Positions 4,443-49,676 of a stretch of 64,000 bases of DNA are shown one piece after another. Below the pieces are notes generated by a model. It searched no databases and had not been told where the DNA came from. It was given only the letters and a program-made list of their open reading frames with translations. Positions within the stretch are counted from its first letter, which is position 1, and every line of letters starts with the position of its first letter. The DNA comes from an uncultured Isosphaeraceae bacterium (lineage in GTDB: Bacteria > Planctomycetota > Planctomycetia > Isosphaerales > Isosphaeraceae). The stretch spans positions 296,197 through 360,196 of the forward strand of contig CAMFLR010000002.1 of NCBI GenBank assembly GCA_945957605.1, read 5' to 3'. Made by a program: the position numbers and the translations under genes.

Positions 4443-4637
4443 TTACCGCCGTTGATCTTGAACTGGTTTCGGGCTCGAGGGCAGGTTTCGTCGGGTGCAG
4501 TCGAAGGGCTCAATAACAAGGTCAAACTGGTAACAAGAAAATCATACGGATTTCGGACGGCAAAAGGCGCAAAGCTGGCTCTATTGCATAACCTTGGCCA
4601 CCTACCCGATCCAAGACACATCCACATATTCTGCTAA
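4443..4637 (+). pseudogene. ISL3-family transposase, C-terminal remnant
   Basis: The frame reads LPPLILNWFRARGQVSSG, then AVEGLNNKVKLVTRKSYG and FRTAKGAKLALLHNLGHLP. This is the highly conserved C-terminal end of ISL3-type DDE transposases (final catalytic Glu in GAVEGLNNK, then YGFR). Only about 65 residues remain. The upstream catalytic domain and any terminal inverted repeats are not visible, so this is a dead fragment. It lies just outside the left end of the 54-kb island, a zone that has evidently received insertions more than once. Confidence 0.8.
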
Positions 4638-5013: not shown

Positions 5014-5059
5014 AGTAGCGGGGACGGGACTCGAACCCATGACCTGCGGATTATGAGAC
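5014..5059. repeat. Left attachment repeat (displaced 3' part of tRNA-Met)
   Basis: A 46-bp block identical, base for base, to 59358-59403. On the minus strand it spells the tRNA-Met sequence from the anticodon arm through the T-arm and acceptor 3' strand (T-loop TTCGAGT), but the 5' half of a tRNA is absent to its right. This is the displaced 3' tRNA fragment expected at the distal end of an element that integrated into tRNA-Met. Identity stops inside the anticodon stem (GAGAC, then A here versus C at the right copy), which places the crossover in the anticodon loop region. Confidence 0.92.
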
Positions 5060-5711: not shown

Positions 5712-6410
5712 ATGAACCCAATATACAGCGAAGTTCCTCGATTCGTCGCTTTGACGCCGCCAAAGAGATTGGAACCTCTTCGACTTGATGACATCGAATC
5801 TGAGCTTCTACTGCCGCATCCACCAGGAACGGGCGTTATCGACGGCACCAACGATACTTGGGGGGGCATGTACTTTCATACAAAGCAAAACCGATGGATT
5901 CGTGCTTGGATCGATCAGAACGAGAAAGCTGATATTAATACGCTGGTAGAGGTGTCACCGGGTGAAGTAGCGGAAGCATTTGGCAAGTATTATAACCGGC
6001 AAAGACGACAGGGCTGGCCGATCGAGATTGCACTCAACCTTTTCCCCCATGCACTTCGCGAGTTGCTCGCTGGCAAGCCTCTCTTCGCAGAGCTTTACAG
6101 TGCTCTCACGAATTCAACTCCAGCGAATGCCGACGCTCCTGTCCTCCCCAGACCGAACTGGAATTCGAACGCGCGACCTCGCTTATTGACTTATGGTGAT
6201 GCAGTTTGTCGGGAATACCGTCGGCCAGCCCCAAATCAGTTCAAGGTCCTTGATGCGCTTCACTCGAAGAATTGGGAAGAGTGGGCTCAGGTTAGCTTGC
6301 GCGCGGAGCAATTGAGCCAGACAGTCCGCGACATGAATGAAGAATTAGTGCGGAATTGCCCGATCCGATTCAAATCCAATGATAAGAATGCCGGCTGGGG
6401 AACGATCTGA
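5712..6410 (+). CDS. Hypothetical protein, first gene of the island
   Basis: A 232-residue protein with no family I can name. The start is ATG with AAGGGG about 8 bases upstream. The N-terminal half is mixed alpha/beta with aromatic clusters (GVIDGTNDTWGGMYFH, NRWIRAWIDQNE). The middle has LVEVSPGEVAEAFGKYYNRQ and IEIALNLFPHALRELLAG. The C-terminal 60 residues are charged and probably helical (WEEWAQVSLRAEQLSQTV). There is no signal peptide or membrane segment. It is the first plus-strand gene inside the left end, 430 bp before the DUF1580 gene. The stretch near 6150-6180 resembles a tRNA T-arm read on the minus strand, but it is inside this open frame. Function unknown. Confidence 0.6.
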   Translation: MNPIYSEVPRFVALTPPKRLEPLRLDDIESELLLPHPPGTGVIDGTNDTWGGMYFHTKQNRWIRAWIDQNEKADINTLVEVSPGEVAEAFGKYYNRQRRQGWPIEIALNLFPHALRELLAGKPLFAELYSALTNSTPANADAPVLPRPNWNSNARPRLLTYGDAVCREYRRPAPNQFKVLDALHSKNWEEWAQVSLRAEQLSQTVRDMNEELVRNCPIRFKSNDKNAGWGTI

Positions 6411-6533
6411 GAATAGCGATCTCCCAAACTCCCGAGATCTCCCGCGAACTCCTCGTTCTAACTCCCGTCTGTTCTTGTTCTGATGTCTTTCGGTGCCGAA
6501 CACTTCAGTTCTAACCGAGTGACTCGTCTAATG

Positions 6534-6866
6534 ATCGATGCTTCGACCGAATCTCTTCTGACCTTGGCCCAAGCGGCCGACGAACTCCCGCGACGCAGGC
6601 GGGGACGAAAGGCTTCGTGCTCCACGCTCTACCGCTGGTCGTCAGCGGGATGCCGAGGCGTGCTGCTCGAAACGATCCAGATTGGCGGGAGCCGCTGCAC
6701 TTCCCGCGAAGCGCTCCAACGGTTCTTTGAGCGTCTTACATCGCCGACGCAGGCTGGCACGACGTGCGTTCCAACTCGCGCAACGGTTTCGACGGTCCGG
6801 ACGACGACACAGCGGCAACGCGCTGCAGCGGAAGCCGCCCGAAAACTCGCGGCCGCGGGCGCGTGA
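6534..6866 (+). CDS. DUF1580 protein, predicted small DNA-binding/excisionase-like protein
   Basis: A 110-residue protein starting MIDASTESLLTLAQAADELP. It continues with RRRRGRKASCSTLYRWSSAG and ETIQIGGSRCTSREALQRFF. This is the pattern of the planctomycete DUF1580 family, built like a MerR/excisionase winged helix: helix-turn-helix around AQAADELP...STLYRW, then a wing and a final helix. The C-terminal 40 residues are Thr/Ala/Arg-rich. An in-frame ATG at 6483 would add 17 residues, but the family normally begins at the MID motif. DUF1580 genes often accompany planctomycete integrases, so a role as recombination directionality factor or repressor of the island is plausible but not shown. Confidence 0.72.
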   Translation: MDASTESLLTLAQAADELPRRRRGRKASCSTLYRWSSAGCRGVLLETIQIGGSRCTSREALQRFFERLTSPTQAGTTCVPTRATVSTVRTTTQRQRAAAEAARKLAAAGA

Positions 6867-7170
6867 GCGCCTTCCCTGTACGGCGGCAGCCCACCGGCGC
6901 GCTGATCTCCCGTTCGACCAGAAGCCGCTTTCCAGCAAAACGGCACGGTGCAGCGCGAGGCCATCCCGCAGTCCGTTCGGTGACACGTCGCGCAGCAAAA
7001 ACTCGCGCGTCGTCAGTCGAACAATATCCGAACGCAGGAAGCTTCGGATAAAGGCAGATTTAGGGTCCCCCGGCTGAATTGGATCGAGCCAGGGGTAAAG
7101 AGAGGCTGACGGAGTAGAAGTCCGCCAGCCTCACGAGCATTCACCAAGTTTTACATCAGGTGATCTTCCA
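6867..7170. other. Intergenic region with a strong hairpin (7102-7132)
   Basis: About 300 bases without a supported gene. Near its end, GAGGCTG-A-CGGA (7102-7113) pairs with TCCG-C-CAGCCTC (7121-7132) around a 7-nt loop, an 11-bp stem with one mismatch. There is no U-tract. It lies 39 bp before the ATG of the next gene, so it may be a 5'-UTR regulatory hairpin or a protein-binding site. Confidence 0.45.
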
Positions 7171-8304
7171 ATGTCTGAGGCTACCCAAGCTTTTGATGGC
7201 GGTCAACAACGTGATCTCGGCGACCAGTCTCCGATCCAGGACGCAAGTAATTCGCCCGTCCCGCTCCTGGGCGATTCCAGCGCAGTTGCAGCGTCGAGCG
7301 CGGCTGACTCCGCGAAAGAATCAAGCATCGTGCCGGCTTCGACGGCAACGAACGAAAGCCAATCCCCTCCCCCGACGCGATCCTCACGCGCCCAGGAGAA
7401 CGACACTAGATTGACCCACGCTCAGCGACTCGCTGCTGCACGAGCCCGTATGAAGGCAGACAACAATTCCTCGTCAACCGAAGCACGTCCATCAACGGAC
7501 TCGACCGTGGCGCCGTCAGCCCAGCAGGATCTGCGGTTTGACAACGAGCACCCGTCGCAGAGCCAATTGCACGCAGGTCAAAATCCCACCACGCGTGAGC
7601 CCGGAGCCGCTTCCGAGACCCCAGCGCTCAACTTGCCGCCAGTGACGAATTCGATCCGCCTGCATGGAATGAGCGGCCGAGATCCACGCACCACCTCGGC
7701 TGCGCCGGCCGCAGATATTAGAACGATTTTCGGCGGTCCGTCTTCCGAGAGCTCGCCCGACCAAGTCTGCCCACCGATTTTCCGTCTCAGCCAAGACTCA
7801 AGGCTTGCAGTTGTTTTCACAATCCAAGCGCTGCCGGTTTCGCTTCACTATCTGACGAAGCCCGGGGGGACTGGAACGGAAGGCGAGTACATCCACTGCA
7901 ACGGCGAGCAGTGCCTGCTCTGTCAGCTCGGCCGACCGGCGAATCGATTTGCGCTCCTGCCGATCGTGAGCCTGATGGAGCGCCGGATCGCTACTCTTCC
8001 GATCAGGATCAGCTACGATTCGACCTCCCTTTACGCCATGCTCCAGGAGACTCTGGACATGGTTGCTGACGGTGTTCTCAGGCTGGTTGACCTGAGAAAG
8101 GTCGGCAGATACGACTTCCAAGTTTCGAGCCGTGAGCTTCCGCCACGCGCGTGGCAACCTCACAGGCTGATCGCCGATTTCACGCGACGCTTCGAGCAAG
8201 GTCACATCGAACTGGGTCGAATCTATCGCCAGGTTGAGAACTCTGCGCTCGCCACGCTCCCCCAGATCGCTGAAGAAATGGGCTACCGGGGGATCACACT
8301 CTGA
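7171..8304 (+). CDS. Candidate zinc-binding single-stranded-DNA-binding protein
   Basis: A 377-residue protein. Residues 1-190 are low-complexity, rich in Ser, Ala, Pro, Gln and Thr, and probably disordered. Residues 195-377 form a folded domain with a beta-rich start (RLAVVFTIQALPVSLHYL). A His-Cys-x4-Cys-x2-Cys cluster follows (HCNGEQCLLC, residues 242-251), then NRFALLPIVSL. A Cys cluster inside a beta-rich domain ahead of LLP recalls phage gp32-type ssDNA-binding proteins, but this is an analogy, not a confirmed family match. It precedes and overlaps by 1 nt (TGATG) a helicase gene and lies two genes before a DNA polymerase, which supports a replication role. AGGTG precedes the ATG. Confidence 0.5.
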   Translation: MSEATQAFDGGQQRDLGDQSPIQDASNSPVPLLGDSSAVAASSAADSAKESSIVPASTATNESQSPPPTRSSRAQENDTRLTHAQRLAAARARMKADNNSSSTEARPSTDSTVAPSAQQDLRFDNEHPSQSQLHAGQNPTTREPGAASETPALNLPPVTNSIRLHGMSGRDPRTTSAAPAADIRTIFGGPSSESSPDQVCPPIFRLSQDSRLAVVFTIQALPVSLHYLTKPGGTGTEGEYIHCNGEQCLLCQLGRPANRFALLPIVSLMERRIATLPIRISYDSTSLYAMLQETLDMVADGVLRLVDLRKVGRYDFQVSSRELPPRAWQPHRLIADFTRRFEQGHIELGRIYRQVENSALATLPQIAEEMGYRGITL

Positions 8305-10163
8305 TGACTGCGTCCGGCACTCATTTCGTGTCCGGCCCGCAGGCCCTGGCGGATTTCCGCCAGGGCCTGACTGGCCAATACGCCATGCGCTTACTTGAAG
8401 AGGCGAACGGCCGCGTCCTGATCACGCTGCCCGTCGGCGTGGGCAAGACGCGATTCATGCTGAGTATCATTCGCCAAGTACGCGCCGGCGGCTCGCCCTA
8501 CGACCTGGTGATCGTCCTGGTTCCTCGGCGCGATCTTCTCCGGGAGATCGATTCGCAACTTCGACTTTCTCCCAGCAAACTCGTCCTTCATCCCAGACCG
8601 CAGAGGTCATGCGGTCCTTTGAACGATCAATGGCTCGAATTCGAGCGCAACGACTGCGGCGCCCTGGCGCGAGCCGAGCTCTGTTCGGTTTGCAGGCATC
8701 GCGCCGTGTGTCAATGGCTGACGCGATACACGCCGGAGAGGATGGCGCGAACCCGGCTTATTCTCGCCACTCAGCAGCACCTGGTAAACGATCCGAACTT
8801 CATCGCCAGAGTGCAGCAGCTCGCGGGAGCCCGACGGCCGCTTGTGTTGCTCGACGAGTCGGACTTGCTGATCCGCCCCAGTCGACGCGTGCTCAGTCAC
8901 ACGGCTCTTACGCAGTTTATCGAGGCACAGGAACTGACCCTGGCTGAGACCGCACGGCCGACACCGGCTCAGGAACGCTGGCTTGAACTCTCACGACAAA
9001 TCGCGACGGCCGACACCCCAGCACTGCAGACCTGTGACCTCACGTCCCCTGCGGTGACCAACGTTTGGGCGCGTCAGGTTCAAACCGTAGGCCGCAGACT
9101 CTTTGGCGGCGCGTTTCGTTTCGCTGCTTATGACCTGATCAGCCTGAGCCGATCGCACGTCCTCAGCCGCGAAAAAACGATGAGCGGCGACATCGAGTGC
9201 GCCAATCCGCCGCAGCTCGGCGATGCGTTCATCGTCTTTTCCGGTACGGTTGCTCGCGGACTCGCGCGTTTTCGTTTGGACCCCAATGACAGCGCGTCCG
9301 CGTTGCTGTCGCCGTTTCAGCACCATTCCTTTGAGCATCCTGGCACGCGATGGTTCAACATTCGATCTTTCGCTGCGTCTCACAACAACTGGCCAGGAAA
9401 CCGCACCGTGATTCTCGACTTCTTTGCCGAGAAGATCGCGCGGAACATCCGGGCGGGCCGGCGGACGCTGCTCGTCGCGAAAAAGCGCTTTGTCGCCGAC
9501 TGCGCGAACTACCTGAACAGCAGGTTGCTGCAGTTGGGCGTCGAAGACGTGCATTTCGTTACGAGCGACTGGCGTCGGGCAAATCTGCGCGACCCTGGGA
9601 CGTTGCCGATCGTCAACTACGGCATTTCCGGCGTCAACCTCTTCGAGGACTTCGACTGCGTTTATTGCCTGACCGGTTATTACGTCCCGGCGGCCGTGAT
9701 TTCTGACGCCGTGCAGGACCTCGTGCCCTCGAATCACCGGGTATCGCTCGACATCGAGATTCAATCCGAGCCCACGCGGCGAATTGTCAGAGTCGATTCG
9801 CCTGATGCAGTCGATACGCGGCTTCCTCAACTCGCGAACTGGGTCCTGGAACAAAAGGAAGCCGACGTCGTGATCCAAGCGGTAGGACGCGTGCGGCCGT
9901 TCACGCGGCCCCGCGAGGTGATCACTTTCCACTACGGCTGCTTGCCAAACGTACGGTACACGCTTGAGTTCGAGACCCTTCGACAGGCGCGAAGCCACTT
10001 CGGCATCGCCACACGTCGCGTCACCGATTTTGAACTGAGGGCCCGTGAAATTAAACGACTGAAGCAGCGCGCCCTCACGAACGAAGTAATCGCTCGGCTG
10101 ATGGGCGTGAGCGTGAGGACGGTGCGCAGGCATCTCCGCAAGGCACGTGGTCAAAGAGATTAG
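8304..10163 (+). CDS. Superfamily 2 helicase, XPD/DinG-like, with Cys cluster and C-terminal HTH
   Basis: A 619-residue ATPase/helicase. Walker A is TLPVGVGKTR (residues about 41-50) and motif Ia is VLVPRRDLL. Walker B/DEAH-type is LVLLDESD (about 180-187) and motif VI is QAVGRVRPF near the C-terminal third. Between motifs Ia and II a cysteine cluster, C118-x8-C127-x2-C130-x5-C136, sits where XPD/DinG helicases carry a 4Fe-4S cluster. The last 35 residues (LTNEVIARLMGVSVRTVRRH) form a helix-turn-helix, an unusual fusion. It overlaps the upstream gene by 1 nt and is followed by an iteron-like region and a DNA polymerase. Its likely role is duplex unwinding during replication of the element; the FeS cluster is inferred from Cys spacing. 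Confidence 0.78.
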   Translation: MTASGTHFVSGPQALADFRQGLTGQYAMRLLEEANGRVLITLPVGVGKTRFMLSIIRQVRAGGSPYDLVIVLVPRRDLLREIDSQLRLSPSKLVLHPRPQRSCGPLNDQWLEFERNDCGALARAELCSVCRHRAVCQWLTRYTPERMARTRLILATQQHLVNDPNFIARVQQLAGARRPLVLLDESDLLIRPSRRVLSHTALTQFIEAQELTLAETARPTPAQERWLELSRQIATADTPALQTCDLTSPAVTNVWARQVQTVGRRLFGGAFRFAAYDLISLSRSHVLSREKTMSGDIECANPPQLGDAFIVFSGTVARGLARFRLDPNDSASALLSPFQHHSFEHPGTRWFNIRSFAASHNNWPGNRTVILDFFAEKIARNIRAGRRTLLVAKKRFVADCANYLNSRLLQLGVEDVHFVTSDWRRANLRDPGTLPIVNYGISGVNLFEDFDCVYCLTGYYVPAAVISDAVQDLVPSNHRVSLDIEIQSEPTRRIVRVDSPDAVDTRLPQLANWVLEQKEADVVIQAVGRVRPFTRPREVITFHYGCLPNVRYTLEFETLRQARSHFGIATRRVTDFELRAREIKRLKQRALTNEVIARLMGVSVRTVRRHLRKARGQRD

Positions 10164-10173
10164 CCACTACAGA

Positions 10174-10237
10174 GCGGACACGACGTAAGCGGACACGACG
10201 TATTTAAGAAGATACTTCTTATATGTTTCGTGTCCGC
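10174..10237. repeat. Iteron-like repeats and palindrome upstream of the DNA polymerase gene
   Basis: Two direct copies of GCGGACACGACGTA (10174-10187 and 10189-10202) are spaced at 15 bp. A palindrome follows (TAAGAAG at 10205-10211, spacer ATA, CTTCTTA at 10215-10221). An inverted copy, TCGTGTCCGC (10228-10237), closes the array. The block starts 11 bp after the helicase stop codon and ends 136 bp before the polymerase ATG. It could be a replication origin, an operator autoregulating the polymerase, or a structured leader. Confidence 0.7.
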
Positions 10238-10373
10238 CTCTCATCAGCCAATTTCAGTGCGGTGGGCGGCCCGCTGCGCCCGGACTGCCCCTGCGCTCAC
10301 CTGCACGCGGGATTTCCATGATCCGGCCTGCTCAACCTCAATCCGCGCAATCAAGCCAATCGTGGAGTCGCTT

Positions 10374-12392
10374 ATGATCCTACCCTACGACCTCGCCCAG
10401 TACGCGCAGCGGGTAACAACGATCGATGACGAAGATTCCGCCTTTCATTTGGTCGACATCGCCGCCCAGATGGAATTGAGCTGCGTGGGGGTCGCGGTCA
10501 TTTATCAAACCAGTCGGCCCGCAGTGGCAACGACTGGCGGCCGAACGTGGAGCGACCCACGCTCGATCAGGCCGCTGTTCATGGTGCTGTCGCTCGACCC
10601 TGGCAGCTGCGGCGACGTCTCCGAGGTCTGCACGTTTGTCGTGGACTTGAACAACGCCGATGTCCGCACGTTGCTAGCGGATGTCTTGCGGCAGCCTGTG
10701 CCGTTCGTTGGGCACGACCTCAAGCAGACGTTTTTCTGTCTCTGGGCCCTCGGGCTCCCTGTTCCCAGGATTGTCTGGGATACATGGACTGCGGAACGCG
10801 CCTTTAGCCTCGGCAAGCACCATGCGCGCTATATCGACAAGCAAACCGACGATCACCGTCGTCAGGCCCAGAACAGGAACCGAGTCGAGTTCGAGATCGA
10901 CCGTGAATGCAGCCTCCCCCAAACGTGCGAGCGCTACGACACGCCAGTTCCTGGACAAGCGGTTCGAGCCCTGCTCGCCGGAAAGCTGGCAGACCGGGGC
11001 AACGGCTTTTGGGGTAGCCGCGACCAGCTCGCCGCGGCGGTCGCGCGTGCAGAGATTGCCGCCAAACTGTACCCGCTCGAAGTCGTGAAAGCGCTCGAGC
11101 TCAATGCCCTCGACCATTTGAAAGCCGTGGAGATGCCCTGGACGATCACAAACGCGGAGTTCACCTGGACCGGAGTGCGTGTCGACGCCGAGTTATGCCG
11201 CAGCGTGCATGCCGCATGCGCACGCCACACGCGAACTTTGGATTCAAGGCTTCGTGAACGCGGCATTTCGAATGTCGACGGCGGTCCCCAATTGGCGAAC
11301 TTCTTCCGTTCGATCGGGCTGCTGGATTCCTTTCCCGATCGAAGCAATCAAAGCTTCGACGACGCCTTTCTCGACCAGAACGAGCATCACGACCCGGCGC
11401 TCGCCGATATACGCGAACTGCGCCGAGTGAGACGGCTGCGCTCAGACAAACTGTTGAGCGGCGAGCTTGTCGGGGCGGATGGACGTGTCCATCCTGACCA
11501 TCGTCAATTTGGCGCAGAGTCGGGACGCAACTCGATGCGCGACCCCAATATCGGTGGGATCGGCCGAATGCTTCGCCCCCTCGTGGTACCAGAAGACCCC
11601 GCCCTCTTCGCGATCGGCGAAGTCGATCTGTGCCAGATCGAAGTTCTGGTTGCTGCAGGGGAAACCGGCGATCCCGAACTGGTGCGGATGGTAAATGCAG
11701 GCGACGTCTATACCGCGATGGCCCGGACGTATTATCGCGAGCGACTCAGCGTGGAGGATCTCGCACTGACCGATGACGATTTCAAACGACGGTATCGGGG
11801 AGATCGCGAACGCATGAAAGTGTTTACACTTTCGATCATCTACAACGTCACGGCCAGTACGCTGGCGAGTCAGTTATCGATCTCGGTCCACCAAGCGGAG
11901 CGCGAGCGTCTGGCATTTTTGGGGATGTTTCCGACCCTGGCCACGACCCTGCATGAGTTTTCAGAGTTCGGCGCGATTCGCGGGTACGCGCAGATTTGCA
12001 CCGGCTTGCGCCGGTATCGCGGGGCGAGCGGCGAGTTGTCGCAATGGGAAAAGAACTGGATGCGAAACACACCGATCCAGGGCTCGGCCTGCGCACTTTT
12101 CAAGATCGCCGGCAATCGGTTGCGTGAGCGGTACCGACCTTACGGCGCGAAGCTGATCATTCCCCTGCACGATGCTTACGTTTTCGAGTGTCCCCTGACC
12201 TCGCTCGAAGAAGTCGCGAGGGTCACGAGCGAAGTCATGACAGGCGTTGTGGGGGAGTACTATCCCGCATTGACGCCACGCGTCGATGTCAACATCAGCC
12301 ACCCGCACTGCTGGAACAAAGATCACAAGATCGAGCCGCTCACGCGCTGGATTGACGACCCAAGGCACGCTCGCGCATACATGCGATCCTGA
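10374..12392 (+). CDS. Family-A DNA polymerase (element-encoded) with DnaQ-like exonuclease region
   Basis: A 672-residue protein from ATG 10374 (GGAG 8 bases upstream); an in-frame GTG at 10230 would add 48 residues. The N-terminal part resembles a 3'-5' exonuclease domain: ExoII-like VPFVGHDLKQTFF and DTWTAERAF. ExoI reads VDIAAQ rather than the usual DxE, so proofreading may be weak or lost. The polymerase core has motif A GEVDLCQIEVL (Asp about 418), motif B RERMKVFTLSIIYN (Lys about 482, Tyr about 490) and motif C IPLHDAYVFEC (His-Asp about 599-600). Motif C has Ala where Pol I has Glu. It lacks a 5' nuclease domain. A replicative polymerase of the island is the likely role. Confidence 0.88.
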   Translation: MILPYDLAQYAQRVTTIDDEDSAFHLVDIAAQMELSCVGVAVIYQTSRPAVATTGGRTWSDPRSIRPLFMVLSLDPGSCGDVSEVCTFVVDLNNADVRTLLADVLRQPVPFVGHDLKQTFFCLWALGLPVPRIVWDTWTAERAFSLGKHHARYIDKQTDDHRRQAQNRNRVEFEIDRECSLPQTCERYDTPVPGQAVRALLAGKLADRGNGFWGSRDQLAAAVARAEIAAKLYPLEVVKALELNALDHLKAVEMPWTITNAEFTWTGVRVDAELCRSVHAACARHTRTLDSRLRERGISNVDGGPQLANFFRSIGLLDSFPDRSNQSFDDAFLDQNEHHDPALADIRELRRVRRLRSDKLLSGELVGADGRVHPDHRQFGAESGRNSMRDPNIGGIGRMLRPLVVPEDPALFAIGEVDLCQIEVLVAAGETGDPELVRMVNAGDVYTAMARTYYRERLSVEDLALTDDDFKRRYRGDRERMKVFTLSIIYNVTASTLASQLSISVHQAERERLAFLGMFPTLATTLHEFSEFGAIRGYAQICTGLRRYRGASGELSQWEKNWMRNTPIQGSACALFKIAGNRLRERYRPYGAKLIIPLHDAYVFECPLTSLEEVARVTSEVMTGVVGEYYPALTPRVDVNISHPHCWNKDHKIEPLTRWIDDPRHARAYMRS

Positions 12393-12589
12393 AGCCGGTT
12401 CGTGACGCTATGGGGAAGCGAGACAAGCGAACGAGCAGCCGATTCTTGCTTTGGCTTTTGAAATTCGTAGGATTCGCGTCAATTACTTGAGTGACACTCT
12501 GTCTCTTACAGAATCTGGCGAGAGAAAAACACAAGGTGTTTTCGTGGCGGGCCGAGTCTGAAGAATTATCGATCATTGCCTCTGCATGA

Positions 12590-12760
12590 CTATACATTAT
12601 AGCTTATTTACTTTTATTTGGAACATGGGCAAGAAATAACAGCGTTAATCTCGTCAAAAGAGCTGATACCGCTTGCCATGCAGCTAAATAAAACGCGTAA
12701 ACGCGCCATATACCAATGGGTCCATGTGATAGCTCTCGGTTTTGAGCCGAGGGCTTTTTT
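12590..12760 (+). ncRNA. Possible small RNA ending in an intrinsic terminator
   Basis: The 390-bp space after the polymerase (12393-12784) has no supported gene but ends in a good intrinsic terminator, AGCTCTCGG (12731-12739), loop TTTTGAG, CCGAGGGCT (12747-12755), then a T-run. The polymerase stop is 340 bp upstream and the next gene starts 25 bp downstream, so the terminator either ends a long 3' UTR or closes an independent short transcript. The 5' limit given is a guess near an AT-rich stretch (TATACATTATAG). No known RNA family was recognised. Confidence 0.28.
12731..12760 (+). terminator. Intrinsic terminator
   Basis: A 9-bp stem with one G-U pair (AGCTCTCGG / CCGAGGGCT), a 7-nt loop TTTTGAG, and a run of six T from the end of the stem. 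It lies just before the DUF1257 gene, so it probably separates the polymerase transcript, or a small RNA, from the DUF1257-DUF2997-AAA operon. Confidence 0.75.
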
Positions 12761-12784
12761 GTTTCATGCAAGAGGAGGTCGACG

Positions 12785-13153
12785 ATGTCGCACATCGTCC
12801 AGATCAGGACTGAGATTCGCGACGAGATCGCGGTTCAGGCCGCTTGTCGGCGGCTTGAACTGCCCCCACCCAGAAATGGATCGGTCAGACTGTTTCAGGA
12901 AGAGGCGTCAGGGATCTTGGTCGAATTACCCGACTGGCTTTATCCCGTCGTGGTCGACCTCGCGAGCGGAGGCATGAAGTATGACAACTACGAGGGACGC
13001 TGGGGCGATCCCAAACAGATCGGCCGGTTTCTCCAGGCTTATGCGCTCGAGAAGGCAACCATCGAGGCGTGCAAACGTGGTCACGTCGTTCGAGAGCAGT
13101 CGCTTGCTGACGGAAAGATCAAACTCGTGATCGGCGTTGGAGGTGTCGCATGA
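12785..13153 (+). CDS. DUF1257 (Ycf35-like) protein
   Basis: A 122-residue protein starting MSHIVQIRTEIRDEIAVQAA, with PDWLYPVVVDLASGGMKYDN and YEGRWGDPKQIGRFLQAYAL. This is the characteristic DUF1257 pattern, the family of plastid/cyanobacterial Ycf35. AAGAGGAGG lies upstream of the ATG. The last 4 bases overlap the DUF2997 start (ATGA), and a Ycf46-like AAA ATPase follows. The same trio is known in cyanobacteria and planctomycetes, though its biochemical role is not established. Co-occurrence here with replication genes suggests a DNA- or stress-related role on the element, which is inference. Confidence 0.85.
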   Translation: MSHIVQIRTEIRDEIAVQAACRRLELPPPRNGSVRLFQEEASGILVELPDWLYPVVVDLASGGMKYDNYEGRWGDPKQIGRFLQAYALEKATIEACKRGHVVREQSLADGKIKLVIGVGGVA

Positions 13154-13341
13154 AGATCATCGAGATCATCGTTGATCGTGACGGCCACACCACGGTCGAG
13201 ACCAAGGGCTTCACCGGCTCTGAGTGTCGTCAGGCCAGTCGGTTCGTTGAAGAGGCGCTCGGCGTCATCACCAGCGATCGTGCCACGGCCGAAGCATTTC
13301 AGCTCGAGAACACGCCCAACAGGATCGACCAGCGCGGTTGA
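13150..13341 (+). CDS. DUF2997 small protein
   Basis: A 63-residue protein, MKIIEIIVDRDGHTTVETKG, followed by FTGSECRQASRFVEEALG. The basic pattern (short beta-hairpin, G-F-x-G-x-x-C, helix) is that of DUF2997 proteins that accompany DUF1257. Its start overlaps the DUF1257 stop by 4 nt, so the two are translationally coupled. The conserved Cys after FTGSE may bind metal or react; no function is known. The AAA ATPase gene begins 49 bp downstream. Confidence 0.82.
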   Translation: MKIIEIIVDRDGHTTVETKGFTGSECRQASRFVEEALGVITSDRATAEAFQLENTPNRIDQRG

Positions 13342-13390
13342 TTTTCACCCCTCGCCACTCTCCTTTTCCCTATCACGATCGGAGTCATCA

Positions 13391-14878
13391 ATGACGCTCG
13401 CCGAGCGTTTGGCGGAGTACGTCCGCGCCTGTTTTACCGGGCTCTGGATTCATTCGATCGAGCCCGACGATGCGGTTGCCGAAATTGCGGCTCTCTGCCG
13501 CAGCGAGCACTGGGCACTGGCCACCTGGGATATCGAACGTGGTCTGGGTCTCGTGGGCTCCGAAGCGGCAATTGTGCCTGGTGCCCCTGATCCGCTTGCC
13601 GCGATTCATGCGCTGGACGCGCTCGCGACGCCCGATGGAACATCATTGCTCGTATTGCGTAACTTTCATCGCTTTCTCGGCTCGGCAGAGATCGTTCAGG
13701 CGGTCGAGGCCCGCGTTGCACAGGGACGCAACGATCGCACATTTGTGGTCGTGCTTGCGCCTCTGGTGCAACTACCGGTCGAGCTCGAACGTCACTTCGC
13801 GGTGATCGAGCACGAACTGCCCACACGTCACGACCTTGCTCGCATTGCGCATGGCGTGGCGACTGAACCGGGTGAGCTGCCCGGTGAGCCCGAACTGGGT
13901 GCTGTGCTCGACGCCTCGGCGGGTCTCACTCGCATTGAGGCGGAAAATGCGTTCAGCCTGGCGCTCGTTCGTCACGGCAAGCTTCAGCCCGACGTGATCT
14001 GGGAACTCAAGGGGCAAGCACTCAAGGCATCAGGGCTGTTGACGCTTCATCGCGGAACGGAGCGGTTTGCCGATCTCGGCGGGCTTGCGGCTCTGCAGCA
14101 ATTTTGTACGCAGGCGCTTCGGCCTGGTCGTGCCGCAAACGTGCGGGCTCGTGGAGTGCTTCTGCTCGGTGTGCCCGGCACAGGCAAGAGCGCATTCGCC
14201 AAGGCGCTTGGGAATGAAACCGGGCGACCTACTCTCATTCTCGATATCGGCTCGCTCCTGGGTTCACTCGTGGGCGAGACCGAGCGGCGTGTACGCGACG
14301 CCTTGCGGACCCTCGATGCGATGGCGCCGTGCATCGTGTTCGTCGATGAACTCGAAAAGGCACTTGGAGGAGCGGCCAGTGGGTCGAATGGTGATTCGGG
14401 TGTTGGCACCCGGCTGTTTGGCACGCTGCTGTCGTGGCTCAACGATCACGAGTCTGACGTGTTCTTCGTGGGCACATCAAATGACGTGAGCAAGCTGCCC
14501 CCTGAGTTTGTTCGCGCCGAGCGGTTCGACGGAACGTTCTTTCTCGACCTTCCAGGTCAGCCTGAGAAAGAGTTGATCTGGCAGATCTATCTCGATCGCT
14601 TCGAGCTCAATCGTCAGCAAGCTCGGCCCGGTGATCGCGACTGGACCGGCGCAGAGATTCGCGCGTGCTGCCGGCTTGCTGCACTTCTGGGTGTGTCGCT
14701 GATCGATGCAGCCCAGCATGTGGTTCCTGTTGCAGTCACAGCCGGTGAATCGGTGGAACGATTGCGGCAGTGGGCGTCGGGACGTTGCCTCGACGCCAAT
14801 CGCACTGGTCTTTACTGCCGAAACACCAGCAGTGACAAACCGGGCCGCGAGGTTCATCGCGACCCATCCACCAATTAA
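13391..14878 (+). CDS. AAA-family ATPase, Ycf46-like
   Basis: A 495-residue protein from ATG 13391; an upstream in-frame extension overlaps DUF2997 and is rejected. Residues 1-220 form an N-terminal domain like that of Ycf46 (TWDIERGLGLVG, then LLVLRNFHRFL and a RHDLARIAHG region). The AAA module has Walker A GVPGTGKS (about 260-267), Walker B CIVFVDELEK (about 314-323), sensor 1 VGTSND (about 360-365) and an arginine-finger region RAERFD (about 375-380). Ycf46-like ATPases are hexameric-type AAA proteins whose partner is often Ycf35/DUF1257, encoded just upstream here. The likely role is an ATP-driven remodelling factor; the substrate is unknown. Confidence 0.85.
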   Translation: MTLAERLAEYVRACFTGLWIHSIEPDDAVAEIAALCRSEHWALATWDIERGLGLVGSEAAIVPGAPDPLAAIHALDALATPDGTSLLVLRNFHRFLGSAEIVQAVEARVAQGRNDRTFVVVLAPLVQLPVELERHFAVIEHELPTRHDLARIAHGVATEPGELPGEPELGAVLDASAGLTRIEAENAFSLALVRHGKLQPDVIWELKGQALKASGLLTLHRGTERFADLGGLAALQQFCTQALRPGRAANVRARGVLLLGVPGTGKSAFAKALGNETGRPTLILDIGSLLGSLVGETERRVRDALRTLDAMAPCIVFVDELEKALGGAASGSNGDSGVGTRLFGTLLSWLNDHESDVFFVGTSNDVSKLPPEFVRAERFDGTFFLDLPGQPEKELIWQIYLDRFELNRQQARPGDRDWTGAEIRACCRLAALLGVSLIDAAQHVVPVAVTAGESVERLRQWASGRCLDANRTGLYCRNTSSDKPGREVHRDPSTN

Positions 14879-14942
14879 TCACTCCCTCTCTTATACGCGG
14901 CCGACACTCAACTCGATTCCGTCATCACCTTGAGGCACCACC

Positions 14943-15902
14943 ATGAGCACCACCCTGCTCGATCCGGTCGAACATCACACCACATCCACCACACCAGCCA
15001 CGCGATTGCGCACCACCATGGCCGCCTGCCGCGTGTCGTTCACGTGGTTCGGCACTCAGAAAACCCTCACCCGCGAGCAGAAAGAGCGGGCCGCTGAAGC
15101 GTTCGATGCTGAAGGTACATCGCTCTCCGCGGGCAAGAAGCTCCTCGACACGACCCACCCGGCCTATCGCGTCGTCACCGCTATCCGAGGGAAGATCGAC
15201 ACCTTCTGGCGCTCGCTCACACTCCCCTTCCCTGAAGCCGGTGTCCGGCTCATTCGCCATGATCAGGTTCAGGATTTCGCGGCGACCATGGGCGATTTTC
15301 GGGTCGAGCTCGAAGAGGCGGTGGCTCAGCTTGATGCTCACTACGATGAGCTGAAACGAGCGGCGGCTCAGCGACTGGGCTCGCTCTACAATCGCGGCGA
15401 TTATCCCGAGACCCTTGTCGGACTGTTCGGTGTTGCCTGGGATTTCCCCAACGTCGAGCCGCCCGATTATCTCGTGCAGCTCTCCCCTGCCCTTTACGAG
15501 CAGGAACAGGCGCGTGTGGCGGCCCGGTTCGAGGAGGCGGTTCAGCTCGCTGAATCAACCTTCCTCGAAGAATTCGCCAAGCTGGTTTCGCACCTCTGCG
15601 AGCGGATTTCGGGTGAGGGTGCAGAGAACAAGATCTTCCGCGACTCGGCTGTGGGCAATCTCACCGAGTTCTTCGAGCGGTTCCGGTCGCTCAACGTGCG
15701 GTCGAATGCGCAGCTCGATTCGCTGGTTGCTCAGGCACAGCGAGCCGTGCGAGGTGTGGCACCTCAGGAGTTACGTGACAGCCAATCATTGCGTCAGAAC
15801 GTGGCAAGCGAACTGGCCCACGTTCAATCGTCGCTCGACGCTCTGATCGTCGACCGGCCGCGTCGCCGTATTTTGCGTCAAAGCCCTGGCGGAGCCACGT
15901 GA
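14943..15902 (+). CDS. Conserved-looking hypothetical protein, mainly alpha-helical
   Basis: A 319-residue protein with no membrane segment. After a Thr-rich leader (residues 1-25) it has CRVSFTWFGTQKTLTREQKE and later AVAQLDAHYDELKRAAAQRL, WDFPNVEPPDYLVQLSP and long helices through residue 300. The arrangement recalls DUF3150-type proteins found near AAA ATPases (CobS/MoxR-like) on phages and plasmids, but I cannot confirm that assignment. It lies 65 bp behind the Ycf46-like ATPase and overlaps the next gene by 1 nt (TGATG). A partner or substrate role for the ATPase is a reasonable guess. Confidence 0.65.
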   Translation: MSTTLLDPVEHHTTSTTPATRLRTTMAACRVSFTWFGTQKTLTREQKERAAEAFDAEGTSLSAGKKLLDTTHPAYRVVTAIRGKIDTFWRSLTLPFPEAGVRLIRHDQVQDFAATMGDFRVELEEAVAQLDAHYDELKRAAAQRLGSLYNRGDYPETLVGLFGVAWDFPNVEPPDYLVQLSPALYEQEQARVAARFEEAVQLAESTFLEEFAKLVSHLCERISGEGAENKIFRDSAVGNLTEFFERFRSLNVRSNAQLDSLVAQAQRAVRGVAPQELRDSQSLRQNVASELAHVQSSLDALIVDRPRRRILRQSPGGAT

Positions 15903-16150
15903 TGGAACTCGTCATTGGCAACGATGGGAGCATCAAGGCGATATACGACGAGGTCATCGATCTCCGATTACTCGGCGCGATTTCCTTGACCCGCGCAAGT
16001 CACGTCGAACCGGACGACTCAGGCAACTGGACCGCGGATTTGAGCCCGGTCGGTGGACCAACGCTCGGTCCTTTTACCCAGCGAAGTGAAGCCCTTTGGG
16101 CCGAGCTGCGCTGGCTCGAACTAAACTGGCTACCGCGCAACAGACCGTAA
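15902..16150 (+). CDS. Small hypothetical protein translationally coupled to the upstream gene
   Basis: An 82-residue protein from ATG 15902, whose first base is the last base of the preceding stop codon; GTG 15899 is also in frame. The sequence MELVIGNDGSIKAIYDEVID is followed by RASHVEPDDSGNWTADLSPV and a C-terminal aromatic helix, LWAELRWLELNWLPRN. It is soluble, acidic and compact. It looks like a recurrent small planctomycete protein, but I know no function for it. A strong hairpin follows. Confidence 0.65.
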   Translation: MELVIGNDGSIKAIYDEVIDLRLLGAISLTRASHVEPDDSGNWTADLSPVGGPTLGPFTQRSEALWAELRWLELNWLPRNRP

Positions 16151-16176
16151 CAAAATCGCAACCGTTGCGAATTCGA

Positions 16177-16215
16177 CGCCGCCGATTGAGGAGCCCATCT
16201 CCTCGCTCGGCGGCG
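16177..16215 (+). terminator. Two-part strong hairpin after the coupled gene pair
   Basis: The outer stem is CGCCGCCGA (16177-16185) with TCGGCGGCG (16207-16215). The inner stem is GAGGAG (16188-16193) with CTCCTC (16199-16204) around a 5-nt loop. TTTCTCGTTT follows. It starts 26 bp after a stop codon, as expected for a terminator. Confidence 0.6.
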
Positions 16216-16298
16216 TTTCTCGTTTCAGGAGAAACACCCTTGAATAGCCTTCTCCAGTCCCAGCGGATCGCAGCCATTTTGAAGCCACGCCCGCCGCG

Positions 16299-16418
16299 GT
16301 GTGTCCCCATTGTGGCGCTGCTGTGAATCACCCCGGCCGGACGCGCGAAGGCGAGGTCATTCTCGCCGAGTGCGTTCGCTGCGACGTCTATTTCGATCCT
16401 CGCCACGACACGCGATAA
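16299..16418 (+). CDS. Tiny zinc-ribbon protein
   Basis: A 39-codon frame starting at GTG 16299. It reads VCPHCGAAVNHPGRTREG, then EVILAECVRCDVYFDPRH, and stops at TAA 16416. Two CxxC knuckles (CPHC and CVRC) separated by 19 residues form a typical treble-clef/zinc-ribbon micro-domain. The frame is open upstream only to a stop at 16245, with no ATG, so the exact start is uncertain. A diverged second copy of the same DNA lies at about 16720-16850 (see 16663-16899). Role unknown; such ribbons often bind nucleic acid. Confidence 0.45.
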   Translation: MCPHCGAAVNHPGRTREGEVILAECVRCDVYFDPRHDTR

Positions 16419-16662
16419 GCGTGACCGAGATGATCGTAGTAGACTCGCCGCCTTTGTGACTGAAATGGTCACACAGGGCCGGTCGGTGTCAGTCAAGCAA
16501 CGTAAAACGGCTGTTAGTGATTCAGGCACACACGCGAGGGTTATGTCTTGTATTGTGATTACCCCAATACACGCCCAAGCGGGGATTGAGCCACGCACGG
16601 GCTAGTGTGGTGATTTCCACCACAGTAGACGTCAGCGGCAACCATAGACGAAATGTCCATGG

Positions 16663-16899
16663 TTGGGAGAGTCGCGCCCGAGCTTCCGCTGGGAAAATTT
16701 GGGCAATCTTTCGTCGCGGCCACTTGAAGCGGAATCTGCTGTTGTGTGTTCCCATCGCGACGACGCCTTGAACAACTCCGGCCAGACGCGCGAAAGCGAG
16801 ACCATTCTCGCCACAGCGTGCCCCAACCGCACAAGTAGCGGATTGCCGTCCTCTCCTTTGCCGCATTTTTCGGCCCCGCGGCCTGAATCCGCCAGTTAA
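16663..16899 (+). pseudogene. Decayed duplicate of the zinc-ribbon gene
   Basis: Around 16748-16850 this frame reads CSHRDDALNNSGQTRE, then SETILATACPNRTSSG. It aligns with CPHCGAAVNHPGRTRE and GEVILAECVRCDVYFD of the gene at 16299-16418. The flanking DNA is also similar (compare 16265-16370 with 16708-16810). Three of the four zinc-ligand cysteines are lost or displaced, so the copy is probably non-functional. It is evidence of a tandem duplication of about 440 bp spacing. Confidence 0.5.
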
Positions 16900-16930
16900 C
16901 GATTCCGTTAATGACAAGTCCCCGCGCCGG

Positions 16931-16996
16931 CGGCACTTTGCCGACGGGCGCTCTTCAACCTTCGCCTCACGGCACCTTGCCGAGCGGCGCGTTCTC
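16931..16996. repeat. Imperfect direct repeat upstream of the clamp-like gene
   Basis: CGGCACTTTGCCGACGGGCG (16931-16950) recurs as CGGCACCTTGCCGAGCGGCG (16970-16989), and both continue into a CTCTTC/GTTCTC end. The two copies are 39 bp apart and end about 40 bp before the clamp-like gene's start codon. Each also has internal symmetry (CGGCA...TGCCG), so each unit can form a small hairpin or bind a dimeric protein. Confidence 0.55.
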
Positions 16997-17037
16997 TCCA
17001 ATTACTTCAACCCGATCTCAACTCAGGAGCGCACCTC

Positions 17038-18459
17038 ATGATTTGCATCACACGCCGACAGATTCGCAGTCTTCGTCCCTTGTTTCGCCGAACCGTGCTT
17101 GGTGTCTCGAGTCGTACCGATGTCCCTACGGTTGTGTTCCACGCCGATGAGCACGGGCTCGTGGTTCGTGTCACAGGTGCGCACGTTTCAATCGAATGCG
17201 TCATCCACAAACAGTCAGCGGCTGCTGAGGAGGCAGTGGTACCTCTCGACGCGTTGGCCGATCTCGAAGGCCGCGACGATACGGCGATCTCGATTGATCC
17301 CGCCATTGGCCGTCGCGTCAGTGCTTCATGGAGCGATGAAGGAATTCCCGTCACCCGTTCGTACGATCTTCCTGCCGACCGGAAATCGACAACGTTTCCA
17401 GAGTTCCCAGCTCAATTCGTGCCTTGCAAAGCTGAAGCCATCGAAGCACTCGCGGCGGTCAACGAGATCACAGGCGACGATTCACCACGCTACGCGCTCG
17501 ACTCAATCGAACTCCGCGGCGCGACCGGCGAAGTTGCCGCCACCGACGGCCATCAGCTCTTGATTCGCTCGGGTCTGAGCTGGCCCTGGGACGAAACTTT
17601 GCTGATCCACTGCTCGCCCATCTTTGCCACCAAGGGCTGGCTTGTGGGTGAAGATTTGAGCGTGGGACGAACCGAGACTCATGTGGTTTTTCGGTGCGGC
17701 CCCTGGACGGCTGCGATGGCGATCCGCGTTAACGCGCGGTTCCCCAAACTCGAAGATGTGATTCCCGCATCGTCAAGGATCACTTCGTCGCTCGTGCTTC
17801 ACCCGACCGATGCACAGTTCCTCGTTCACTCGCTCGAGCGCTTGCCCGGCAGTGAAGCGATGAATGCGCCCGTGACGCTCGAACTCAACGGCAAGATCAG
17901 CGTGAGAGCGGCCAGCGAACGTAGTGCGCCGTCGACCGATTTGATCCTGTCGCGGTCGAGCTACACCGGCACACCAACGAAAATTTGCACCAACCGCAAC
18001 TTCCTGGCGTTCGCCGCCAGAGCGGGAGCCGGTGAGATTCATCTCCACGGCACCAACGCCCCGTTCTCGATGTCCGCCGGCAAGACAACCTATGCCTGGC
18101 AACCGCTATCGGACGACGGTGCCATTCCGTCGAGCGAGGACGCGATTTCGATCGCTTCTGATTCGTTCTGTCCCACACCTCCTCCGGCTATCAACAGACC
18201 GTCCCCTGCCCCCAGGATCGTCACCATGAAAGCGACAAAACCAGACATCACGGGTCCGTCTCACGAAGAGTCATCAACATCGACGGGCATCTCGGCGCTG
18301 ATCGCCGAAGCCGAGGCGATTCACGCCACCCTTGCCATCGCCCGCACGCGTTCGAGCCGGCTCGTCGCCGCGCTCAGGAAGCACCGCAAGCAAAACCGCC
18401 TTGTCCAGGAAACGCTGCGTTCGCTCCATCAGCTCAAGCTTCACGACGTGGCGGGCTGA
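17038..18459 (+). CDS. DNA polymerase sliding-clamp (beta/DnaN)-like protein with a C-terminal tail
   Basis: A 473-residue protein, ATG 17038 with AGGAG 8 bases upstream. Two short signatures of the bacterial beta clamp appear in order and spacing: AATDGHQLLIRS (residues about 167-178, compare ATDGHRLA in DnaN) and VNARFPKLEDVIP (about 231-243, compare FPDYxxVIP). The preceding 160 residues and following 110 fit repeated beta-alpha-beta clamp folds. Beyond residue 390 comes a Pro/Ser/Thr-rich linker and a basic coiled-coil tail (ISALIAEAEAIHATLAIAR), not found in ordinary DnaN. It probably acts as processivity factor for the element's family-A polymerase, which would be an unusual pairing. 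Confidence 0.72.
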   Translation: MICITRRQIRSLRPLFRRTVLGVSSRTDVPTVVFHADEHGLVVRVTGAHVSIECVIHKQSAAAEEAVVPLDALADLEGRDDTAISIDPAIGRRVSASWSDEGIPVTRSYDLPADRKSTTFPEFPAQFVPCKAEAIEALAAVNEITGDDSPRYALDSIELRGATGEVAATDGHQLLIRSGLSWPWDETLLIHCSPIFATKGWLVGEDLSVGRTETHVVFRCGPWTAAMAIRVNARFPKLEDVIPASSRITSSLVLHPTDAQFLVHSLERLPGSEAMNAPVTLELNGKISVRAASERSAPSTDLILSRSSYTGTPTKICTNRNFLAFAARAGAGEIHLHGTNAPFSMSAGKTTYAWQPLSDDGAIPSSEDAISIASDSFCPTPPPAINRPSPAPRIVTMKATKPDITGPSHEESSTSTGISALIAEAEAIHATLAIARTRSSRLVAALRKHRKQNRLVQETLRSLHQLKLHDVAG

Positions 18460-18520
18460 TTACCTGGTTCCACTTGCGAACGATTTCCTCTCGAAAGTCT
18501 CACTAACGATAGGAGACGCG

Positions 18521-18994
18521 ATGGCATTGAAGCTCTCAGTCGTGCTGTCGAAGAAGATTGGCCAGCCCGACTACGGTTCCCTCGGCGCGAGCTGTGGCGT
18601 GGAGTTCGAAATCGACCTCGCCGCCCCGCACAGCGACCCCAAACGTTTGCAGGCGCAGGTCCGCGATGCCTTTGCCGCTTGCCAGCAAGCGGTCGATAAC
18701 GAACTCGAGCGGTTGAGTTCGTCGAACGGAAAACATGCGGAGGCACAGCCGAGTCGCGATTCGGCACCTATTGAGCAGCAAGCCTCCCGTTCCCATTCCA
18801 GCACGGAACAGCGGACTCGCCGACTCGCGACACCCGCCCAGTTGCAGGCACTCGCGCTGCTTGCCCAGCGCCAAGGACTCAATCTCGATCGCTATGTCGC
18901 GAGCCACTCTGCGGTCGCGACGGCTGATCAACTCTCGCTCGTTCAGGCCAGCCGGCTCATCGGCTCGTTGCGATCAATGTCGAAGGCGTCCTGA
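18521..18994 (+). CDS. Hypothetical protein of the island replication block
   Basis: A 157-residue protein from ATG 18521 (AGGAG 5 bases upstream). The N-terminal domain begins MALKLSVVLSKKIGQPDYGS and LGASCGVEFEIDLA, a beta-rich motif. Next come a helix with AACQQAVDNELERL, a polar linker (about 75-110) and a C-terminal helical domain, LATPAQLQALALLAQRQG ending in QASRLIGSL. The last part resembles small helical domains appended to phage recombination or ssDNA-binding proteins, but I cannot name a family. It lies 60 bp behind the clamp-like gene. A DNA-metabolism role is guessed from context. Confidence 0.65.
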   Translation: MALKLSVVLSKKIGQPDYGSLGASCGVEFEIDLAAPHSDPKRLQAQVRDAFAACQQAVDNELERLSSSNGKHAEAQPSRDSAPIEQQASRSHSSTEQRTRRLATPAQLQALALLAQRQGLNLDRYVASHSAVATADQLSLVQASRLIGSLRSMSKAS

Positions 18995-19055
18995 CGAGCT
19001 TCCTTCCCCAACAAGTTCGATCCCAGACCGATTATCACCAGAGGAGCAGCATCTC

Positions 19056-19235
19056 ATGGGAGCGCGACAGAAGCTGAATACCGCTTACTTCAATGGCGGT
19101 TTGATGCTGGCCGCGGTCGTTGGCTTTGCGGCGAATTCGTGGTGGGTGTTTTTTCTAGTCCTGACCTTCACGATGGCGGCGTCGATCTACTCGGGTAACA
19201 TTCGGCCTGCATCTTCGCGGTCACAGCGCCGCTAA
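19056..19235 (+). CDS. Small membrane protein (59 aa)
   Basis: It starts at ATG 19056 with GAGGAG 9 bases upstream. MGARQKLNTAYFNGGLMLAA leads into two hydrophobic segments (about residues 13-28 and 30-45: WWVFFLVLTFTMAASIYSG) separated by a short turn, and it ends in a basic tail, RPASSRSQRR. It is a two-helix inner-membrane micro-protein with no known function. A strong terminator-like hairpin follows, closing the replication block. Confidence 0.65.
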   Translation: MGARQKLNTAYFNGGLMLAAVVGFAANSWWVFFLVLTFTMAASIYSGNIRPASSRSQRR

Positions 19236-19404: not shown

Positions 19405-20060
19405 TCTTCGCGAGTAGACAGCTGTTAGGTGGTGACCAGATCTTTTGCCCGCACTCACGGCTTAATAGGAGATCAAAGCGCCTCAATCGTAAATGGGATT
19501 GTCGTCGCGATTCTCCCCGAAGCTCATGGCCATCCGCTGTGTCAATATGGCCCCTCAACGCCCTTCGGAGTCATTATCGCATTCAAGCGCACGGCGATTT
19601 CAAACCCGTGCCCCCACCCAATTGTTCAGCGTCTTCGATGTCATCCTTGCGGTCAAGAGCCAGACAGGAAGAGGAAAGTCCGCGACTCCTATGATGCTCA
19701 ACGCATTGGGCGACGTAGTCCTGATCACTCGGTTGCGACCTTGACTTGAATTGCTCCATACAACTGCTCACCCCTCTGCTGCGTCACCATCTTGATCATT
19801 TCCGTGCCGAGCGCGGACCCCATTCGCAGTTGATCTGCTCAAACCTCTTTGGCGTCGGTTTCATGTTCACAATTGACGAACCGACTTTGCCATCCCGGAT
19901 CGCTTCTGCTCACCACCTTGCCGCATTGTCGCGGTGTTCACTCGCGGGGCGGCCAAACGACTCGCCGCACCGCCTCGCGGTACGTGTGTCTCAAAGGCTC
20001 CGATGGTTTTGTTACCTCCACCGCCGCTCTGATGGCTTCCGGCTGGAGTGATCAAACTTG

Positions 20061-20110
20061 GCCGGGTGGGAATTGCACCCACTGGGAAATCGTGCCTTAT
20101 CACGGCGCAT
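20061..20110 (-). other. tRNA-like 3' fragment, possibly from tRNA-Ile(GAT)
   Basis: Read on the minus strand, an anticodon-arm-like piece with loop GTGATAA (central GAT) is followed after a short spacer by GTGGG-TGCAATT-CCCAC (20066-20082), a perfect 5-bp T-arm whose loop differs from the canonical TTC start by one base. A GGCC-type acceptor strand follows. No 5' tRNA half is present; AT-rich DNA lies there instead. This is either a decayed tRNA or an old attachment-site remnant. It is not a functional tRNA as it stands. Confidence 0.35.
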
Positions 20111-39303: not shown

Positions 39304-39314
39304 TTTAGCAATCC

Positions 39315-40130
39315 TTACTGTGATACCTGAGATAAGCAATCCTCAACTTCGTTGAGCAAGACTATAGGCTCGATTGGTCGAAAGAGATACTTCGATGCGC
39401 CAAGCGCCAGGCCTTTGAGACGCGACTTCTCGTCGCAAGACGTCGAGGTAATCAAAATGAAGGGCAATTTCGCCAATTTGGGATCCGCGCGAACCGCCTT
39501 AACAAACTCGTAACCGCTTCCCTTCGCCATTTGCACGTCGGACATGATTAAGTCGGGCGGATCGAGGCGAGCCAGTTCGAGTGCCTTGATCATGTCCGAC
39601 GCCGTCGTCACAGCGTAACCCATTGGCTCAAAGATGCTGCACGTCAGTTCAAGGTTGGCGTAATTGTCGTCAACAATCAGGAGTCGGCGCCGACCAGCGG
39701 GAAACGACACAATCGGATTGGCCGAGTCCCCCTGATGAGGCGGCGCTAACTTCTCGCCTCGGCCCGATTCGAGAAAGCGCTCGACTTGGCCGACGAACGA
39801 TTCAGGCTCGATTGGCTTGGCAATATAACCACTGAATCCGCACTCAAGCACCCTATCCCGGTCGCCTACCATTGCGAACGCGGTTACTGCGACGAGGGGT
39901 ACGTGACTGAGTTCGTGGTGGCTTCGAATTTTCCTCGCGACGTCAAAGCCGCTCAGTTTGGGAAGTTGGATGTCGCAGATGATCAGGTCGGGGCGCTCGC
40001 TGATGGCGGCCGCAACGCCGCTCTCACCGTCAGAGGCCGTCAGCGGTTCATAGCCGAACGCCCTGAGAAGATAGGACATCAATTCCAGGTTCGCCTGGTT
40101 GTCCTCGATAATCAGGATCCGGGCAATCAT
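39315..40130 (-). CDS. Tandem double-receiver response regulator
   Basis: A 271-residue protein made of two CheY-like receivers and no output domain. Receiver 1 has [25 protein letters not shown] and YIAKPIE. Receiver 2 has [23 protein letters not shown] and LFRPIEP, where the conserved Lys is replaced by Arg. Phospho-acceptor Asp is present in both. Such DivK-like proteins act as phosphate relays or competitors. The ATG overlaps the stop of the upstream PAS kinase by 4 nt, and the receiver-kinase gene follows after 11 bp. The operon order is thus kinase, double receiver, receiver-kinase. Confidence 0.9.
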
Positions 40131-47270: not shown

Positions 47271-47312
47271 ACGCAAACTTAATCTAAACCATAAGGAATC
47301 GGGGGTAGTCCG

Positions 47313-47966: not shown

Positions 47967-47984
47967 CATGAACGGGACCACGGC

Positions 47985-49569: not shown

Positions 49570-49676
49570 GTGGAACGATTGCCACTCTCGCTCGATTTGC
49601 AGAGTGGCACCCCTATCGTGGTGTTGCCGACGACGAAGGCGTTGAGTTTACTCCAACCCGATGAGCACTTATTTCC

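Follow-up and report, generated by a model that had tools for sequence, protein, structure and literature searches.

A planctomycete tRNA-Met island carries a predicted DNA-synthesis trio beside an AAA/DUF3150-like cassette and a DnaN-fold clamp paralog

Introduction

When single-strand-binding, helicase-like, polymerase, AAA ATPase and clamp-like genes lie together on a bacterial island, do they form one replisome or a collection of separate parts? This question is raised by a stretch of 64,000 nucleotides from an uncultured Isosphaeraceae bacterium (assembly GCA_945957605.1, contig CAMFLR010000002.1, positions 296,197 to 360,196 of the forward strand), hereafter called the window, whose positions are used throughout. 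A preliminary description had proposed that a block near one end of it encodes a self-contained replisome for an excised element. All the genes named there were found in the right place, and all lie on the + strand. We label the genes of the block by their starts: A (5712), B (6483), C (7171), D (8304), E (10374), F (12785), G (13150), H (13391), I (14943), J (15899), K (17038) and L (18521).

We conclude, with a probability of about 0.6, that the block is a composite of independent cassettes: C-D-E, a phage-type DNA-synthesis trio; F-J, a phage-borne AAA/DUF3150-like unit; and K-L, a clamp unit. We prefer this reading because the polymerase E and the clamp are adjacent only here, because a terminator-like hairpin lies between them, and because no priming, initiation or clamp-loading genes were recognised on the island.

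Results

The preliminary description expected its genes to co-occur in other genomes, and we checked this. C, D and E did so, being contiguous and identically ordered in two further genomes, G445 (31, 43 and 38% identity to the window, respectively) and G112 (E-values 1e-27, 1e-151 and 5e-200), but the polymerase and the clamp were found together only here. On the sides available, no gene of F-L, clamp and AAA gene included, lies within ~35-40 kb of C-D-E in either genome, and neither E nor a helicase of the D kind is present in ~40 loci that contain K or I. In the fragmented genome G008 the polymerase and the clamp are on different short contigs, so their co-occurrence cannot be judged there. 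The trio is rare, with D present in 2 of 118 relatives and C in 2 of 392 genomes of the phylum. In G445 it lies inside a tRNA-His island, delimited by 45-bp repeats (1633997-1634041 and 1683630-1683674) that are 49.6 kb apart, with an integrase next to tRNA-His; thus two of the three C-D-E loci are in tRNA islands. In G112, open reading frames (ORFs) close to the trio read by eye as a type I restriction-modification (R-M) set. Pattern scans of genome contigs with the polymerase alone or with the helicase pair gave nothing above chance matches. Viral-contig scans with polymerase or helicase patterns, a narrow method, found no viral C-D-E, and phage records gave no match to the clamp or to D.

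Between E and F, a hairpin of 11 pairs followed by T6 (12731-12755, + strand) resembles an intrinsic terminator; it has the longest stem of our terminator scan, and such sites occur in the region in near the number expected by chance. Among the island ORFs scanned, with the small ones covered in part, we recognised no primase, initiator, clamp loader or replicative hexameric helicase, and a search for origin-like iterons near C-D-E found none. The claim of self-containment is therefore not supported by the ORFs scanned. What survives of the proposed replisome is its folds, its mobile setting and the conserved C-D-E unit, not a single unit of all the pieces.

The folds themselves were well predicted: structure and hidden Markov model comparisons support a single-stranded DNA-binding protein (SSB), a polymerase and a clamp. 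Gene C (7171-8304, + strand) encodes a protein with a long, low-complexity N-terminus and a folded domain at residues 181-377 (AF2 pLDDT 78). When the modelled domain was compared with known structures using VIA, the top four rows were all T4/RB69 gp32 (Z 8.6, 8.6, 7.4 and 6.9), ahead of the best unrelated oligonucleotide/oligosaccharide-binding (OB) fold at 6.0, and the best matches, at Z 8.6, extended over 151-155 residues with a root-mean-square deviation (rmsd) of 3.5-3.7, consistent with the gp32 core OB fold. Phage SSB models rank among its matches in BFVD; against the PDB alone, Foldseek gave no significant match and a sequence search nothing useful. The zinc site of gp32 consists of one His and three Cys. 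In C, H226, C243, C248 and C251 are invariant in five homologs and are predicted to be zinc ligands, and we suggest that the protein coats single-stranded DNA as gp32 does. It differs from gp32, its best structural neighbour, in its N-terminus and in being partnered with a family-A polymerase and a superfamily 2 (SF2) protein; the two are 11-12% identical.

Gene D (8304-10163, + strand) had been called an XPD/DinG-like FeS helicase. Its N-terminus matches Pfam ResIII (E 7.9e-6) and DEAD (1e-3), and four Cys invariant in three homologs (C103, C127, C130 and C136) lie between the Walker A motif (45-49) and the DE of motif II (184-185), as in XPD/DinG proteins, with a spacing that we take to resemble that of archaeal XPD. 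The motif QAVGRVRP is likewise invariant in the three homologs, all of which have a C-terminal helix-turn-helix (HTH). The cysteines agree with the name, but the sequence matches were to ResIII/DEAD only; XPD/DinG family models gave no match and XPD/DinG structures no useful E-value. D is best described as an SF2 helicase-like protein with a Cys4 insertion.

As predicted, E (10374-12392, + strand) is a Klenow-like family-A DNA polymerase (Pfam PF00476, E 1.6e-33) with no 5'-nuclease domain. Among solved structures, the closest to it are large fragments of Taq-type Pol I (E 5.7e-25). An alignment that included the G445, G112 and G008 homologs placed the palm motifs DLCQIE, K..F...IIYN and HDA on those of Taq, so that catalytic motifs A and C are both present. 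The D-x-E of the 3'-5' exonuclease, in contrast to that of the G112 homolog, is lost both in the window protein and in the G445 homolog. E has no canonical clamp-binding motif; a loose pattern matched QQDLRF in C, within its disordered part, and also QWLEF in D, which we judged to be chance matches.

K (17038-18459, + strand), the clamp-like protein of the preliminary description, is a paralog of the sliding clamp DnaN. Its model (AF2 pLDDT 82.8) matched bacterial beta clamps with Foldseek (E 2e-21) and with VIA (Z 27.7 over 343 residues, rmsd 3.2), which indicates the three-domain beta-clamp fold, followed by an extra C-terminal helix (418-472). Despite the absence of a Pfam DNA_pol3_beta match, a relation to DnaN was also detected in sequence profiles: hhalign aligned residues 31-358 with a chromosomal DnaN of the phylum, which has the three DNA_pol3_beta domains (97.9%, E 5e-13), K matched phrog_947 (E 4.5e-8), and the profile of the K family picks up dnaN-like genes as well, located near position 1500 in complete chromosomes. 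Unlike DnaN, K is not near dnaA and lies on an island beside L and, sometimes, an exonuclease gene; it is 12-19% identical to solved clamps.

At most clamp loci K is followed by the conserved partner gene L (18521-18994, + strand; 157 aa). In 22 loci besides this one K-L comes after J, although L is missing or could not be recognised in some of them; eight or nine loci have K but no F-J. A PDDEXK gene, matched best among phage families by an exonuclease (phrog_69, 7e-31), follows in eight clamp loci. A second F-L set, 59-92% identical, is present in the home genome on contig C17 with two paralogs of C just upstream and no D or E; no attachment repeat was found for it. Clamp homologs at L064 and L070 adjoin a DUF2201 metallopeptidase/VWA-like protein. 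Those of five genomes (G024, G027, G036, G379 and G368) contain internal stop codons and appear to be decaying, as expected of mobile genes. In the window the J-K gap is unusually long and holds an 89-nt imperfect repeat (73%; 16279-16367 and 16724-16812).

The five genes between the hairpin and this gap had been described in part as an AAA trio. One is indeed an AAA ATPase, H (13391-14878, + strand; PF00004, 4.9e-27; phrog_8638, 1.6e-76), but the other two supposed members are small partners: G (13150-13341, + strand) is a DUF2997 protein (PF11211, E 1.1e-13), and F (12785-13153, + strand), which has no Pfam match, is syntenic and Ycf35/DUF1257-like by sequence pattern only. H matches AAA families of the CDC48/PAN type, with a weak clamp-loader match (phrog_168, 0.0028). 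I (14943-15902, + strand) is a DUF3150-like protein with 52-90% identity in 15 loci, and J (15899-16150, + strand) is a conserved, syntenic protein of 83 aa.

F-J occur in fixed order at ~26 planctomycete loci, and I is present in 29 of 392 genomes of the phylum. The cassette is also viral: among the 80 best IMG/VR loci it is whole and in order in ~30, in many cases with I and J separated by one gene, and several of the contigs bearing it are near 200 kb. A terminase match, sometimes weak, was found in 13 of 19 F-J virus records tested, one of which has a separate clamp. Whole F-J sets occur in virus contigs without K, and a polymerase of the C-D-E type is absent from all these planctomycete and viral F-J loci. 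On well-assembled contigs, and among the integrase matches listed, a tyrosine integrase lies within 10 kb of F-J/clamp loci in 6 of 25 cases (0.48 expected) and within 60 kb in 12 of the 25 (2.7 expected).

In copies lacking K-L, JAB- and ThiF-like genes may come after J. Four clamp-less copies (L097, L107, L108 and L127) have ThiF (E1-like) genes and a conserved protein of 355-378 aa with no assigned function, and L097 shows a weak JAB match. L127, a 69-kb IMG/VR contig, combines F-J (I, 57% identity), ThiF and a terminase match with several serine recombinases, and is possibly an integrative element that was called viral.

Parts of F-J recall two known clusters. In cyanophage MinM2, an AAA gene also lies beside one for a DUF3150 protein (24% identical to I) within a MoxR-DUF3150-VWA cluster; there, however, the ATPase is annotated as MoxR, a VWA protein is present, and no Ycf35 or DUF2997 is annotated. 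The cyanobacterial DUF2997-ycf35-fed7 cluster (PMC4284462) pairs a DUF2997 protein with a Ycf35-like one, as F-G do, whereas here F-G are followed by the AAA gene, I and J and are located on islands and in viruses. A literature search, incomplete in coverage, found no paper describing the C-D-E, F-J or K-L cassettes, whose parts appear largely undescribed.

The block is part of a 54.3-kb island, close to one of its ends, in a planctomycete-like genome. Exact 46-bp direct repeats, of which none would be expected by chance, bound the island: the distal one (5014-5059, + strand) is the 3' part of tRNA-Met, and its identical counterpart (59358-59403, + strand) lies inside an intact tRNA-Met gene (59359-59433, - strand), beside which is a tyrosine integrase gene (58074-59255, - strand; Phage_integrase PF00589, E 1.8e-19). 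The repeat of the tRNA 3' end together with the integrase identifies a tRNA-integrated island and bears out the assumption that the element could be excised. Like tRNA-integrated islands such as the Islander set (PMC4383910), it has a tyrosine integrase and ends marked by the regenerated tRNA and the displaced 3' fragment; it differs from them in additionally bearing cassettes for DNA synthesis and a clamp. The literature searched yielded no published counterpart from planctomycetes.

In relatives G005 and G007, tRNA-Met adjoins the same ABC-protein gene without the island's integrase. The left flank was found in neither, so a complete empty site was not recovered, but the arrangement fits insertion at the tRNA. 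In a same-genus relative (L228, G001:C272), tRNA-Met is 8.7 kb from the ABC gene and oppositely oriented, which suggests a rearrangement or another insertion.

The island also carries genes for glycosyltransferases, a membrane-fusion protein, PAS kinases and GGDEF/EAL proteins; the cargo at 37279-57172 includes multi-PAS histidine kinases of very large size along with a GGDEF/EAL protein. A short ORF (4452-4637) immediately beyond the distal repeat resembles, by reading alone, the C-terminal end of a transposase. The sole match of an RNA-family scan was a group II intron fragment just past the block (19942-20084, - strand; Rfam RF02003, D1-D4-4, E 1.3e-14), possibly the trace of an insertion.

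Discussion

For C, E, H and K we count the fold or family as established, together with the gene orders and the island ends, unlike the roles of the proteins. If the block is a composite, C would coat single strands, the helicase-like D with its HTH would open DNA, and the Klenow-like E, which lacks proofreading, would fill in. Once the island had been excised or had entered a cell, the trio would thereby fill gaps in it or replicate it to a limited extent, relying on the host for primase, initiator and clamp loader. The trio probably has an auxiliary role, managing the island's single-stranded DNA and synthesising DNA for it. K-L would supply a diverged DnaN clamp and its partner, followed elsewhere by a phage-type recombination exonuclease; K may be a ring onto which the element's proteins dock, and not a processivity factor dedicated to E.

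Several points weigh against separate cassettes with these roles. All the activities are predicted from genes and models, including both the Fe-S cluster and the helicase activity of D. The match of C to gp32 was built on a 4-sequence model, and a Z near 8 can reflect a shared arrangement. C-D-E is known from three instances only. Finally, the gp32-like genes beside F-L on contig C17 may mean that SSB and clamp cassettes are linked more than this division allows.

As a tentative extension, the F-J core may be an undescribed modular system that planctomycete islands have in common with large phages (contigs near 200 kb) and whose arms can be exchanged, either the DnaN paralog with L and exonuclease or JAB with ThiF; it would serve phage-host or element-element conflict or DNA processing. 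C-D-E would then be a separate, minimal gp32-helicase-PolA system for island synthesis.

It is somewhat less probable that F-J with its swap-in arms is specifically a system for defence, counter-defence or competition among phages and that C-D-E is another such cargo with no part in replication. Several F-J copies lie, in divergent orientation, beside defence genes: F-J or K-L adjoins type I R-M at L061 and L065, a DrmD-like helicase with a methyltransferase at L059, L060 and L063, and PglW/PglX-like genes at L071. The JAB and ThiF neighbours of K-less copies and the apparent R-M set near the G112 trio point the same way. Islands collect defence genes in general, however, so this may be defence-island clustering and is no proof of a defence role. 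By eye, no defence gene is evident beside F-J in the large virus contigs L131 and L137, and PADLOC gave no match for I, K or D and a generic IetA-type AAA match for H.

We consider it unlikely that C-D-E works for the host in repair or recombination, by lesion bypass or gap repair, and sits on islands by chance. PolA and the XPD/DinG-like Cys4 helicases belong to the proteins of DNA repair, and the lost proofreading site of E would suit such work; against this, the distribution of the trio is very patchy and most of its known loci are tRNA islands.

Least probable of all is a single replisome for the excised island, with its own clamp holding the polymerase on DNA and the AAA protein loading it: the pieces are all together and co-oriented here, and K retains the fold of DnaN and has a stretch, TDGHQL, that aligns with the TDS/G-H/R-R-L motif of the DnaN central domain, but E and K are adjacent in no other locus, F-J does without K in viruses, a terminator separates E from F, H is closer to CDC48/PAN than to clamp loaders, and E has no clamp-binding motif.

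Read as separate cassettes, the block places a DnaN-type clamp away from its usual chromosomal position, travelling with phage-like gene sets, and shows bacterial islands to carry a gp32-like SSB that has a polymerase of its own. Each cassette is small enough for testing in vitro. In F-J, a five-gene cassette is conserved between large phages and planctomycete islands, and it may represent a common but as yet unnamed phage system.

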